Shown here: in pieces, positions 11,228-58,093 of the stretch
Position numbering within the stretch: position 1 is the first letter of the stretch
Layout of the letters: every line of letters begins with the position of its first letter
DNA from: Leuconostocaceae bacterium ESL0723
GTDB lineage: Bacteria; Bacillota; Bacilli; Lactobacillales; Lactobacillaceae
DNA: 64,000 bases
Reading direction: 5' to 3'
Assembly: GCA_029392055.1 (NCBI GenBank)
Contig: CP113928.1
Coordinates: 990,501 to 1,054,500, forward strand
Made by a program: the position numbers and the translations under genes
The notes under the pieces: model-generated
What the model was told of the DNA's origin: nothing
Databases searched by the model: none
Seen by the model: only the letters and a program-made list of their open reading frames with translations

Positions 11228-12109
11228 CTAACGATACTTAATTTTCTTGTTAGCCATCAGGTTGTAAAAGGTCTTGTAGCTATTATAGCGTGATGCTGAG
11301 ATTGTGCCAAGCGTCACAGCTTCCTTGATTGCACAACCCGGTTCATTAATATGAACACAGCCCCGGAAGCGGCACTGACCACGCAGGGCGCGAAACTCAG
11401 GGAAGTACTGATCCAAATCGGTGACTGGAAAGTCAAACACCTCATAGGAAGAAAAGCCCGGGGTATCAGCAATCCAAGTCTGCCACTCGGGAATCGGCAA
11501 CAGGGCCACCTGCCGGGTGGTATGCTTTCCGCGACTCAGGGCCTTGGAAACCTCACCGACCTCTAGGCCTAATCCCGGGCAAAGTTGGTTAAGCAAGGTT
11601 GATTTACCGGCCCCGGTTTGACCCATAAAAACCGTAACCTGGTCCTTTAATATGTTGCCCCACTGCTGGCTCTCATCCTGGTCGGATACCAGTACTGGGT
11701 AGCCAATGTTTTGATAATCAGCAATCACAGCAGCAAAGTCGGCCCGTTCCTCGTCGGTTAGCAAATCCATCTTAGAAAAGTAAATGGCCGCTGGCACCTT
11801 AGCCGCCTCTAGGGCCACTAACTGCCGATCCAGCAGGTTGGCCGTGAAATTTGGCTCCCGGACTGCCGTTACAATCACTGCCCGGTCTAGGTTAGCAATC
11901 GGTGGCCGGACCAGACTGTTTTTACGGGGGTGAATTTTCCAGATAAAGCCGTCATTACTCTGACTATCAAAGTCAACCTCATCACCGACCAGGGGCTTTT
12001 GTTTGGACTTCCGGAATTCTCCCCTAGCGCGGGCGCGCAACACTTCCCCGTCGGGACCGGCAATGTCATAGTAGCCACTTAAAGAACGAATTATACGACC
12101 TGTTTTCAT
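11228..12109 (-). CDS. rsgA: Small ribosomal subunit biogenesis GTPase RsgA
   Basis: Circularly permuted GTPase that checks late 30S assembly. 293 residues: N-terminal OB fold, GTPase with P-loop [14 protein letters not shown] near 172, DTPGFSSYE near 225, and a C-terminal zinc segment [16 protein letters not shown]. No Shine-Dalgarno precedes ATG 12109; instead a TACAAT box ends six bases before it (see promoter), suggesting a leaderless transcript. Residue 1 fits family N-termini, so a later start is unlikely. Confidence 0.96.
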
Positions 12110-12162: not shown

Positions 12163-12190
12163 AAAAAAACCAGCCGAAGCTGGTTTTTTA
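12163..12190 (-). terminator. Terminator of the fmt-rsmB-stp-prkC operon
   Basis: Stem AAACCAGC/GCTGGTTT with loop CGAA (TTCG on the transcript), followed on the minus strand by a T run. It overlaps the prkC stop codon at 12188-12190 and separates prkC from rsgA. Confidence 0.92.
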
Positions 12191-14083
12191 ATTATGGTTA
12201 AACAATTGGTCCCAAAGAGACTGCTGGCCATTATTGTTAGACTGCGTAGTTACATTACCGGTAGCACTGCTAGCGCTACTTGAGCTGCTAGCGCCATTGG
12301 AACTAGCCGAACTACTCTGAGAACCATCTGAAATGACGAATTCCAAACCGGTGTCGGTTGAAATGTTGGAACCACCAGGCGTCGATTGGCTCAGCACCTG
12401 GTTCTTAGGACTACTATCGTGCTGGGTCCGGAAGTTAACCTTGACCCCATTGCTGTTCGCCCAAGATTCAACGTCTGACCGGCTGCGGCCAGTGAAGTCC
12501 GGTACCGAAATCTTAGCCGGTCCAGATGAAACCGTGAAGGTTACGGTCGTGTCACTTGGTACGACCCGCTGATCCGGCCGAATGGATTGGGAAATAATCT
12601 TACCAGCGGGTACATCACTGGAGCTCTTCATTTCCTTGTTAACCGTGTAGCCTTGGGCCGTTAACTGGGCCGCAGTCGAGCCGTAGTCCGAATCGGTATA
12701 ATCGCCAAAACGGACCTTTTCAGCGCCCGACGACAGGGTCAACTTAACCGTGGTGCCCTTCTTAACGCTGGCGCCACTGGCTGGGTTAGTCTTAATCACG
12801 CTGCCAGAGGCCACCGTTTTCGAGTTGGAGTAGCTGACATGACTATCCACCTTTAAGCCAAGCTGGTTCAACTTATCACTGGCCTGACTCTGGGTCAGGT
12901 TGGAAAGCTCTGGGACCTGAACATAGCTGGACTGAATCCGCATGGCAACCACTGCTGCTACCAGCAACCCAACCAGGCCGACTGCCGCTAGGACCCACTT
13001 ACGGGGGTCACGGAACTTAATGCCATTGTTGCGCAGGACCTTGCGGACATATTTGGGCGTCCGGTCGACAAGACGACTAATTTCCTCAATTGGGTAGCCC
13101 TTGCGGCCATAGTCGATGATTTGCCGGACGACTTCCGCGCTATCATCATCTTCAGCTGAGTTAGCAGGAGCTGATTCTGGCGCAGTCGCAGCGGCCTCAC
13201 TCATTGGCATTAGCCGGGTCTCATCATCTTCAGCTGGGATGAATTTTGGTTCCCGGGCCCGCCGTGGTGATAGCGAGGTCTTCAAGTCAGCGGCCATGTC
13301 GGCAGCGCTGTCGTAGCGCTGGCTAGGGTCCTTAGCGGTCGCCTTCAAAATCACATTCTCTAGGGGTTGGGGAATGCTGGGATCGAAGTCACGCACCGAA
13401 GGAATTGGTTCGGTGGCGTGCTTTAAGGCCACCGTGGCCGCCGTATCGCCCTCGTAGGGAACCTTATCGGTCAACAGCTGGTAAAGCATGACCCCCAGGG
13501 CGTAAATATCGGACTTGGTTGAAGCCACTTCACCGCGGGTTTGCTCCGGTGAAATGTAGTGGAGGGACCCAATCACATTATGAGTCTGGGTCAAATCCTG
13601 ACTACTTTTCCCAACCGCAATCCCAAAGTCGGTGATTTTAACCTGGTTATCCCGGTCGATTAAGACGTTTTGTGGCTTTAAATCTCGGTGAATAATGCCG
13701 GCCTGGTGGGCGGCCTGGACCGCGTCCAGGATTTGGAGCATGATATCAACCACGAGCTGGAAAGGAATTGGGAAATGCTCGTTAATATAGTCCTTTAAGT
13801 CCATCCCATCGACGTATTCCATAACCATGTAGTTGGAACCATCGTACTGGCCCACATCATAAACCTGGACAATGTGGGGGTTGACCAGGGCGGTGGCCGC
13901 CGTAGCCTCCTGGTGGAAACGCTCGACGAGATCCTTACGGTCACGCATGTCCAAACGAATCATTTTCAGGGTTACGTCCCGGTCCAGGTATTGGTCCCAG
14001 GCCTGATAAACGTTGGCCATTCCGCCGCCGCCCAGAGATCTTATGATGCGGTAACGTCCGTCAATTATAGTACCAGCTTGCAT
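12188..14083 (-). CDS. prkC: PASTA-domain Ser/Thr protein kinase PrkC/Stk with an HTH-like juxtamembrane segment
   Basis: Membrane kinase that senses wall muropeptides or lipid II and phosphorylates division, wall and metabolic targets. 631 residues: kinase domain about 11-270 with catalytic K40, HRDLKPQN 132-139 and DFG 152-154; an acidic A/E/S linker 283-315; a three-helix segment 316-354 that reads as a helix-turn-helix (IIDYGRKGYPIEEISRLVD then TPKYVRKVLRNNGI); membrane helix 363-381; three PASTA repeats about 385-452, 455-520 and 523-588; a Ser/Asn-rich C-terminal tail. The HTH-like segment is not part of the standard PrkC layout as I know it. Stp phosphatase is encoded 31 bases upstream in the same operon. 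Confidence 0.95.
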   Translation of the reverse strand: MQAGTIIDGRYRIIRSLGGGGMANVYQAWDQYLDRDVTLKMIRLDMRDRKDLVERFHQEATAATALVNPHIVQVYDVGQYDGSNYMVMEYVDGMDLKDYINEHFPIPFQLVVDIMLQILDAVQAAHQAGIIHRDLKPQNVLIDRDNQVKITDFGIAVGKSSQDLTQTHNVIGSLHYISPEQTRGEVASTKSDIYALGVMLYQLLTDKVPYEGDTAATVALKHATEPIPSVRDFDPSIPQPLENVILKATAKDPSQRYDSAADMAADLKTSLSPRRAREPKFIPAEDDETRLMPMSEAAATAPESAPANSAEDDDSAEVVRQIIDYGRKGYPIEEISRLVDRTPKYVRKVLRNNGIKFRDPRKWVLAAVGLVGLLVAAVVAMRIQSSYVQVPELSNLTQSQASDKLNQLGLKVDSHVSYSNSKTVASGSVIKTNPASGASVKKGTTVKLTLSSGAEKVRFGDYTDSDYGSTAAQLTAQGYTVNKEMKSSSDVPAGKIISQSIRPDQRVVPSDTTVTFTVSSGPAKISVPDFTGRSRSDVESWANSNGVKVNFRTQHDSSPKNQVLSQSTPGGSNISTDTGLEFVISDGSQSSSASSNGASSSSSASSATGNVTTQSNNNGQQSLWDQLFNHN

Positions 14084-14114: not shown

Positions 14115-14840
14115 TCACTGTTTCAACAACAGCGCGGTGACGTTATCAGAAGCCGCGTGTTGGTTTGCTGCATTAATTAGTGCCTTGACCAGCTCAGGCA
14201 ACGGTCGCTTTTGACCAATAATTTCACTCATTTCGGTCAACGACAAGGCCTTGGGCAGGCCATCTGACGTCAAAAACAAGATATCAGCTGGCAAAAACGG
14301 GTACCAGTGCATCTCCAAGTTTACCCGGTCATCGACGCCAAGGTACCGGGTTAAACTGTTGGCATTTGGCAAATCATCGTCGTAGTGTTGCCCGTTTTGC
14401 CGGGCCAATTCGTTTTTTAAAGTATGGTCAAAGGAAACTTGTTGCAACTGTCCGTCCCGCCAGATATAGGCCTTTGAATCGCCCACGTTAGCCACTAAGA
14501 GACGCTGTTCAGTGACAACCCCCAAGACTAAGGTGGTTGCCATCTGGGCCTCACTGGGTTGGCCACTTTCAGCCGCCCGTAGGACGAGTTGGTTTACCCA
14601 ATCAACCTGGTCATAAATCCAGTTCTCAATGGCTTCGTCGTCATCAAGACTGCTATCCTGCCAGGCTTCCCCTAGCTTTTCAATCGCCATTTGACTGGCC
14701 AGGCGGCTGCCCGCATTGCTGGCTACGCCGTCCGCCACCATCACCAAGGGCAGGTTTTGTTGGTTATAAAAGGCCCCAACCTGATCCTGGTTGTCTTTAC
14801 GTTGGGTACCAATATCAGTTTGATAGGCAATTTCGATCAA
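14115..14840 (-). CDS. stp: PP2C-type protein phosphatase Stp/PrpC
   Basis: Metal-dependent phosphatase that reverses PrkC phosphorylation. 241 residues with metal-binding aspartates in RKDNQDQ near 14-20, VADGV near 35, ANVGDSKAYIWRDGQL, LTSDGLP and ASDNVTALLL. The usual DGxGGH motif after the first DG reads DGVASNAG, a variant. It lies between rsmB (2 bases) and prkC (31 bases), the conserved order. Confidence 0.93.
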   Translation of the reverse strand: MIEIAYQTDIGTQRKDNQDQVGAFYNQQNLPLVMVADGVASNAGSRLASQMAIEKLGEAWQDSSLDDDEAIENWIYDQVDWVNQLVLRAAESGQPSEAQMATTLVLGVVTEQRLLVANVGDSKAYIWRDGQLQQVSFDHTLKNELARQNGQHYDDDLPNANSLTRYLGVDDRVNLEMHWYPFLPADILFLTSDGLPKALSLTEMSEIIGQKRPLPELVKALINAANQHAASDNVTALLLKQ

Positions 14841-56644: not shown

Positions 56645-57233
56645 ACAGTCCATCATGAAAAACTTGTCGGTTCTGCCAGAAGTAATCAAAGCCAGAATAA
56701 ACGGTAAAGATTACCGCCACCCAAAGGAGGACCGCCCCGATTGGAAAATGAATCAAGGCAAAGGGCCAGTTACCCAGGTACAAAAACAGGATGGCAAACA
56801 TCTGGGAAAAGGTTTTAATTTTGCCAGGCATGGCAGCGGCTAAGACCTTACCATTGTTTTCAACAATCAAGGTCCTTAGGCCGGTTACAGCCAGTTCACG
56901 AATCACAATAATGGCCGTCATCCAGGCCGGCACGACATCAAAGGCCGTCAAGTAAATCAAAGCCGTCATCACCAGCAACTTATCGGCCAGGGGATCGGCA
57001 AACTTACCAAAGTTAGTCACCAAATGGTGCCGCCGGGCAATCTGACCGTCCAAAAAGTCCGTAATCGAGGCCACGGCAAAGACAATCGCCGCCAGTAACC
57101 AGTTCACCGGCAAGGCAAAGTGGTCACTGGCCATGATTGGCCAACCGTAAGGAACCGTCAGCAGGAGCATGAAGACTGGAATTAAAAATATCCGAAAAAC
57201 CGTTAATTTATTAGGTAGGTTCATGAGACTCAC
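56643..57233 (-). CDS. pgsA: CDP-diacylglycerol--glycerol-3-phosphate 3-phosphatidyltransferase
   Basis: Commits CDP-DAG to phosphatidylglycerol. 196 residues, several membrane helices and a complete CDP-alcohol motif DGQIARRHHLVTNFGKFAD near 63-81, continuing to DPLAD. Start overlaps the rodZ stop (ATGA). Confidence 0.96.
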   Translation of the reverse strand: MSLMNLPNKLTVFRIFLIPVFMLLLTVPYGWPIMASDHFALPVNWLLAAIVFAVASITDFLDGQIARRHHLVTNFGKFADPLADKLLVMTALIYLTAFDVVPAWMTAIIVIRELAVTGLRTLIVENNGKVLAAAMPGKIKTFSQMFAILFLYLGNWPFALIHFPIGAVLLWVAVIFTVYSGFDYFWQNRQVFHDGL

Positions 57234-58093
57234 TTATTGAAGTTAAAGAGGACATACCAGAGGCTTGGCGTTGGGTTAGGTAAATCTGGTACGGAAACAG
57301 GCTGATCATCTAAGGTCAAAGTAGCATTCGAAATGATGCTTACTTGCACGTTAACCGCCGTAGTACCGGCTGGAATATCAACCGTCTTTTCAGTATTTGC
57401 TGGTACCCACTGGTTAAACAAAATCTTGCTAGTTGCGTCATTAACCTTCACAGTCGTACCGGCGTTTTGTCCCTTAATAACCAGCTTGTGGGCCTTGCTT
57501 TGCTGACCAGCTAAGTTATAAGTAGTCAAGCTCTGACTGGTGTTAGTCGTTGGCTTACCCAACTTCAACTCGTCCTTCTTTGATGAAGATGAGGCTGAGC
57601 TAGAAGACTTTGAAACTGATGAGGATGAGACCTGGACATCATTTTGACCCGAGTCCTGGTTGTTCTGGTTAGATACCAGGACAATCACTAGCCAAACAAT
57701 CAACAAGAAGACTACCACGCCAATGGCAATCCAAATTTTAGGAAGCCAACCCATCAGCTGAGCCTTGACTGACTGAGTGTGGTCAACCCCAGCTCGCACA
57801 ACCCCGTCATCATCCCGGTGGGCGTGACTGAGGTCACCAGTGTGAACTAGTGGACTGTCATCGGTCTCGCCGATGAGTTCATCTGGGTTGAGTCCTAGGA
57901 CCCGCGCATACTGCCGAATAAAGGCCCGGACATAGAACTCACCGGGCAGGGCTGCAAAGTCGCCGGCTTCCAACGACTTTAAGTAGTGTAACTGAATCTT
58001 GGTGGCGGCACTGACATCATTCAGCGACATCCCCTTCTCTTTCCGGGCTGCCTTTAGGCGCTCACCAATTTCAGCTGATAATCCTTCTGTCAT
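57230..58093 (-). CDS. rodZ: RodZ/YmfM-like cell-shape protein
   Basis: 287 residues: an N-terminal Cro-type HTH (GERLKAARKEKGMSLNDVSA near 11-30), a basic region, one membrane helix near 121-143, a Ser-rich linker and an extracytoplasmic DUF4115-like domain to the C-terminus. RodZ links MreB to the wall machinery; mreC and mreD lie 5 kb away. Follows the M16 pair, the conserved order. Confidence 0.9.
   Translation of the reverse strand: MTEGLSAEIGERLKAARKEKGMSLNDVSAATKIQLHYLKSLEAGDFAALPGEFYVRAFIRQYARVLGLNPDELIGETDDSPLVHTGDLSHAHRDDDGVVRAGVDHTQSVKAQLMGWLPKIWIAIGVVVFLLIVWLVIVLVSNQNNQDSGQNDVQVSSSSVSKSSSSASSSSKKDELKLGKPTTNTSQSLTTYNLAGQQSKAHKLVIKGQNAGTTVKVNDATSKILFNQWVPANTEKTVDIPAGTTAVNVQVSIISNATLTLDDQPVSVPDLPNPTPSLWYVLFNFNK

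Follow-up and report, generated by a model that had tools for sequence, protein, structure and literature searches.

Few wall-signalling proteins of Gram-positive bacteria have been studied as thoroughly as the PASTA kinases, in which the cytoplasmic linker is generally regarded as a plain tether. The prkC locus of Leuconostocaceae bacterium ESL0723 raises the question of whether this linker can also house a folded domain and, if so, what that domain would do. In the window (the whole stretch of 64,000 nucleotides of contig CP113928.1 that was analysed), a first-pass annotation had placed an HTH-like domain in PrkC, inserted between its kinase part and its membrane helix, at 13022-13138. On the minus strand, this interval is exactly residues 316-354, all three of the peptides quoted for it are present in the translation, and the 631-aa frame (12188-14083) is intact, as had been stated. 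No description of an HTH in a PASTA kinase was found in the open-licence literature, and the available portions of two reviews (PMC6213207 and PMC4601284) do not mention one.

The ORF is a PASTA kinase (PrkC/StkP/PknB), with a kinase domain, one membrane helix, and PASTA repeats, and its match to NCBIfam NF033483, at 590.5 bits, lies over the curated family cut-off of 450. The limits of the PASTA region (Table 1) come from the first PF03793 stretch together with the NF033483 match. Judging from their sequences, the upstream ORF (14115-14840) is presumably a PP2C-type phosphatase and the downstream ORF (11228-12109) an rsgA-type GTPase; because such neighbours fit a prkC locus, this kinase is the ordinary PrkC of the genome. 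When whole PrkC was used as a query in its own genome, the sole second match was weak and fell in the PASTA stretch of another ORF (E 7e-4), and no second copy of the HTH domain was found there at E <= 10. The PASTA kinases PrkC, StkP, Stk1, and PknB have the same kinase, single membrane helix, and three PASTA repeats, but in the window PrkC the juxtamembrane linker also contains an HTH, about 42 residues long.

Table 1. Features of the prkC gene and its product, in window coordinates
Feature	Residues	Window positions	Strand	Basis
prkC, PASTA Ser/Thr kinase	631 aa	12188..14083 (stop codon included)	minus	intact ORF; Pfam and NCBIfam
Kinase domain	11-258	13310..14053	minus	Pfam PF00069, E 6.2e-52
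Acidic disordered linker	275-314	13142..13261	minus	AlphaFold pLDDT; net charge in orthologues
HTH domain (predicted)	315-356	13016..13141	minus	AlphaFold, fold and profile comparisons, conservation
HTH helix 1	315-328	13100..13141	minus	AlphaFold
HTH helix 2	332-339	13067..13090	minus	AlphaFold
HTH helix 3, recognition-type	343-352	13028..13057	minus	AlphaFold; orthologue conservation
Basic hinge	357-363	12995..13015	minus	net charge; pLDDT
Membrane helix (modelled)	361-386	12926..13003	minus	AlphaFold; hydrophobic stretch in translation
PASTA repeats, three	388-585	12329..12922	minus	Pfam PF03793, three stretches

Is the added segment a folded domain? An AlphaFold model of residues 312-365, built with 10 aligned sequences (the near-identical L062 was left out), has a mean pLDDT of 86, which rises to about 94 across 322-351. 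It contains the three short helices that had been read from the letters, and its fold is that of an HTH. The location originally given for the domain was right, and its limits need small corrections: helix 1 begins at residue 315, and the conserved NGIK-F/Y turn after helix 3 (353-357) is also part of the domain. In a model of the full-length protein (pTM 0.46), the HTH appears as an island at a pLDDT of about 81, below that of the isolated segment, with residues 287-314 and 358-366 at less than 50 and a single helix at 361-386. A Foldseek search of the PDB with the HTH model gave nothing at E <= 0.001 (best E 0.46), and among the 50 matches listed there were many HTH and winged-helix proteins, including Sin resolvase (TM 0.75, rmsd 0.9). 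In VIA-align, the top rank went to the Sin resolvase-DNA complex (Z 6.7, rmsd 0.9, 43 residues, 21% identity), followed by a phage small terminase (Z 6.5), GcrA (6.3), gamma-delta resolvase (6.1), and TrpR (6.0), with SIRV1 ORF55 within Z 6.0-6.5 and the CRISPR-repeat-binding protein 2lvs at Z 6.0 and an rmsd of 4.2. Because a Z below 8 may reflect a mere common arrangement, values of 6.0-6.7 are taken as evidence of the fold rather than of descent or function. By these models, residues 315-356 of PrkC are an autonomous three-helix HTH domain, resolvase- or homeodomain-like.

A five-row profile of the domain, run against 397 Lactobacillaceae genomes with a threshold of E <= 0.01, matched 47. 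In 37 of these, the carriers, the match is strong (E <= 2.4e-22) and lies in an ORF of 597-659 aa; the matches of the remaining 10 are all weak (best E 1.4e-4 to 0.0095), fall in other ORFs, and were taken as chance. The carriers comprise all 19 genomes of the genus Leuconostoc, all 13 of Fructobacillus, and five more (two in g1, two in g7, one in g8) from Convivina, L. fallax, and the window's own genus; among them are Leuconostoc gelidum, L. litchii, Fructobacillus pseudoficulneus, two Convivina genomes (G007, G062), L. fallax, and strains ESL0958 and L1_55_11. In L1_55_11, the second genome of the window's genus, the HTH segment is unchanged. A sample of the order gave matches in 5 of 345 genomes (four of them carriers, the fifth with a protein whose sequence resembles an AraC-family regulator), a sample of the class gave 1 of 398 (the window's own genome), and named genomes yielded 15 loci: 10 kinases plus five apparent AraC-family regulators of Paenibacillus. 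Outside the carrier clade, these sampled searches found the motif only in AraC-family HTHs. The AraC-family-like regulators (L072-L076, L138) share LVDRTPNY with the PrkC domain at the HTH turn, which may reflect either convergence or descent.

Comparison with HTH families agrees with the fold without assigning the domain to any one of them. The window segment matches Pfam HTH_23 at E 0.0065, with 16.4-16.7 bits against a cut-off of 24.6, and reaches no curated Pfam HTH cut-off; membership in any one HTH family is therefore weaker, while the fold itself is unaffected. The best NCBIfam match is the HTH model of Cbp1, a CRISPR-repeat-binding protein (E 8e-4); the likeness to Cbp1 consists in this match and the Z of 6.0, and the score of 19.3 is far under the cut-off of 140. 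At E <= 1, segments from 19 carriers matched HTH_58 (16/19, best E 4e-5), HTH_23 (15/19, 2e-4), HTH_38 (15/19, 3e-3), and HTH_28 (9/19, 6e-5), and a few also weakly matched unrelated families; HTH_7, the Pfam family of the serine resolvase HTH, matched a single one of them (E 0.052). None of 10 juxtamembrane linkers, hand-picked from those read in non-carrier loci, matched an HTH family at E <= 1, and two gave weak matches to the unrelated families DUF5780 and New_glue. When a profile of 19 orthologues was compared with one of 10 resolvase HTHs (10 of the 20 resolvase-type loci found), the score was 30.3 (probability 90.9, 29 columns, about 17% identity), and the best of 60 column-shuffled profiles reached 14.2. 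The profile scored 52.4 against AraC HTHs (shuffled best 14.7), but this AraC set, having been collected by means of the motif, is biased. Sequence profiles run against solved structures gave chance-level matches only, such as designed proteins. Thus, model, fold comparison, and profile comparison all back the initial reading of a resolvase- or homeodomain-type HTH; the serine resolvases (Sin, gamma-delta) resemble the segment in fold, helix spacing, and profile, but the window PrkC is without a recombinase domain.

The segment is also conserved over longer distances. Among the 37 orthologues, mean pairwise identity is 0.72 in the kinase, 0.41 in the linker (275-313), 0.64 in the HTH (316-356), 0.71 in the core of helices 2 and 3 (333-356), 0.38 in the basic hinge, 0.22 in the membrane helix, and 0.53 in the PASTA region. 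I322, I335, V339, R341, V346, R347, L350, and G354 are identical in all 37 carriers, D340, T342, P343, and K356 in 36, and N353 in 35; variation is seen at residues 348 and 352 and, less markedly, at 344 and 351. Conserved polar positions are concentrated in the turn and on helix 3. Pooled dN/dS, from the 19 of 666 pairs in the useful range (close pairs), is 0.054 for the HTH, 0.036 for the kinase, 0.053 for the linker, 0.047 for PASTA, and 0.287 for the hinge plus membrane helix. Since at this short scale the HTH and the linker are equally constrained, the contrast between them rests on the 37-orthologue identities. Net charge is +3 to +7 for residues 341-358 in every orthologue, +2 to +4 for the hinge (358-364), about zero on average for helix 1, and -2 to +7 for the whole HTH (316-357). 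The linker before the HTH (275-315) is acidic, as first described, with a mean net charge of -6.7, and the HTH segment is conserved across the clade rather than being an unconserved low-complexity linker. That standard PrkC has no such domain is borne out by 24 + 30 non-carrier loci (some genomes twice), in which the juxtamembrane region, read by eye, holds acidic and basic linkers and no motif. Clade-wide conservation, the fold, and the lack of any HTH match in the 10 non-carrier linkers together led to the rejection of a chance or linker artefact.

Two other parts of the protein recur beyond the window. Beyond its last PASTA repeat, the protein ends in a Ser-rich tail of about 44 residues (12191-12322, minus strand), and similar tails are found in the named carrier kinases. 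Within the acidic linker, Thr289 (13217-13219) lies in a D/E-T-R/K-hydrophobic motif that is invariant in the 10-row alignment and is visible in many non-carrier kinases too; from its sequence, it looks like a juxtamembrane autophosphorylation site.

The Leuconostoc-Fructobacillus-Convivina lineage acquired the HTH a single time, at its base, and then retained it. In a kinase-domain tree of 25 of the 37 carriers and 29 of the 49 non-carriers, with HTH labels taken from the profile searches, all 25 carriers form one branch apart from the 29 non-carriers (100/97, one change), a result repeated in all 200 bootstrap trees. This 54-row tree omits, among others, the non-carriers L114, L117, and L120, which have long branches; a quick tree of all 86 rows (37 carriers and 49 non-carriers) again unites the 37 carriers on one branch (SH-aLRT 97). 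A loan from a phage or plasmid was considered but gained no support: viral contigs gave four pattern-matching stretches, none of which was confirmed, and plasmids gave no match at E <= 1. Separately, a kinase match at E <= 1e-60 is absent in 3 of 90 relatives (G043, G045, and G051), and in these the PASTA kinase appears to have been lost or to have diverged strongly.

The gene content of the carriers bears on what the domain might do. The curated cut-off of the Noc model (315) is reached by none of 15 carriers and by 17 of 32 non-carriers (Fisher p 2.4e-4); each of the 15 carriers has one match to this model, of 217-263 bits, which can be read as ParB. However, this association reflects one shared history and is not independent evidence. 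Furthermore, G046 and G019, the non-carriers that stand nearest to the carriers on the tree, likewise have no Noc over the cut-off, so the loss of Noc may predate the HTH. Loss of Noc as the cause of the HTH was rejected, given that G046, G019, and other Noc-less genera are without the domain. MreB and a RodZ-type HTH_25 protein are both present in 20 of 20 genomes (15 carriers and five non-carriers); consequently, the PrkC HTH does not replace RodZ, and the ideas of a RodZ substitute or of a lineage without MreB were dropped. In the window, a RodZ-type ORF lies at 57230-58093 on the minus strand, with HTH_25 at about 91 bits and then a membrane helix; it is a second membrane-anchored HTH protein besides PrkC.

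What, then, is the domain for? Its most likely use, to which a probability of about one half is given, would be to bind chromosomal DNA next to the membrane and so to cluster or gate the kinase, by analogy with YabT of B. subtilis. According to the available parts of the YabT reports (PMC6333020, PMC3708118), region 274-315 of this kinase, directly before its membrane helix (316-338), binds both double- and single-stranded DNA irrespective of sequence, autophosphorylation of the kinase is stimulated by DNA, the region is disordered without DNA, and B. subtilis PrkC and PrkD gave no DNA shift in the same study. Like the window PrkC, YabT is a membrane-anchored kinase with a juxtamembrane region immediately before the membrane helix. 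Unlike it, YabT has neither PASTA repeats nor an HTH, and DNA binding has been demonstrated for YabT, whereas for the window PrkC it is predicted. Because the YabT region is disordered without DNA, the comparison is an analogy of mechanism, not of kinship; the window PrkC may work like YabT, yet its PASTA sensor repeats mean that it is no YabT-type kinase. In such a mechanism, the HTH would bind DNA beside the membrane, PrkC molecules would be gathered along the DNA at the septum or membrane, and trans-autophosphorylation would be promoted, by analogy with YabT; alternatively, and by the same analogy, DNA binding would hold PrkC near the nucleoid. The kinase would then respond jointly to wall fragments on the PASTA repeats, a signal from outside, and to DNA at the membrane, a signal from inside, and one may speculate that the acidic linker keeps the kinase off the DNA.

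Several observations bear on this proposal. The structures ranked best by VIA-align are DNA-binding HTHs, which is consistent with the predicted activity, and the sequence pattern of the domain together with the YabT precedent favours DNA binding. By standard HTH numbering, T342, P343, residue 344, and R347 fall where HTH residues usually face DNA. However, the domain is not basic throughout in all orthologues (-2 to +7), and basic residues beside the membrane helix are common anyway, non-carriers included. In addition, only about ten residues separate the end of helix 3 from the membrane, so that DNA would have little space there, and the variability of residues 348, 352, and partly 344 and 351 makes recognition of one strict DNA sequence less likely. 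A bolder extension, in which PASTA repeats reading the wall outside and an HTH reading DNA inside form a coincidence detector that makes division and wall phosphorylation chromosome-dependent, and that may partly stand in for nucleoid occlusion where the lineage has no recognisable Noc, is doubtful.

HTH folds can also bind proteins, and the main rival to DNA binding is a protein-binding module like that of RodZ, which would dock a division or elongation protein or a substrate on the inner side of the membrane and bind no DNA; this is possible but tentative. RodZ is a cell-wall protein whose HTH lies in the cytoplasm and is connected to a membrane helix, and this HTH is the part that docks MreB. 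The PrkC HTH sits where partners of PrkC would be, MreB is present in 15 of 15 carriers examined, and the available text of one report (PMC3599482) describes the interaction of RodZ, a membrane protein with a cytoplasmic HTH, with MreB. However, RodZ has no kinase and its HTH is of another type, HTH_25, a family found among none of those matched by PrkC or by the 19 carrier segments; all 15 carriers have a separate RodZ-type protein as well, and the gathering of conserved polar residues at the turn and helix 3 also argues against this reading.

Two further explanations need neither DNA nor a docking partner. The domain could serve dimerisation, pairing kinases in advance for trans-autophosphorylation, as would suit a site between kinase and membrane helix and the activation of Hanks kinases through dimers (available parts of PMC6333020, PMC3708118), but the invariant surface-type residues are polar or basic (R341, R347) and form no hydrophobic patch, and this role is unlikely. 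The least probable reading, and a very improbable one, takes the domain for a structured spacer or lipid anchor that lies on the membrane and carries positive charge: the domain is indeed basic and adjoins the membrane, and non-carriers are basic there too, but a spacer need not retain a fold or the motif VDRTPxYVRxVLxxNGIK across genera, and the neighbouring basic hinge drifts (pairwise identity 0.38). DNA binding beside the membrane stays the preferred reading.

Through a folded, conserved HTH in its linker, a PASTA kinase could come under the control of DNA or of a new partner, a specific route that is open to testing, and the related genera with and without the domain provide a natural comparison. 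If the domain does bind DNA, control of kinase activity by DNA would reach beyond the sporulation kinase YabT to include a housekeeping wall kinase, and wall growth would be linked directly to the position of the chromosome.
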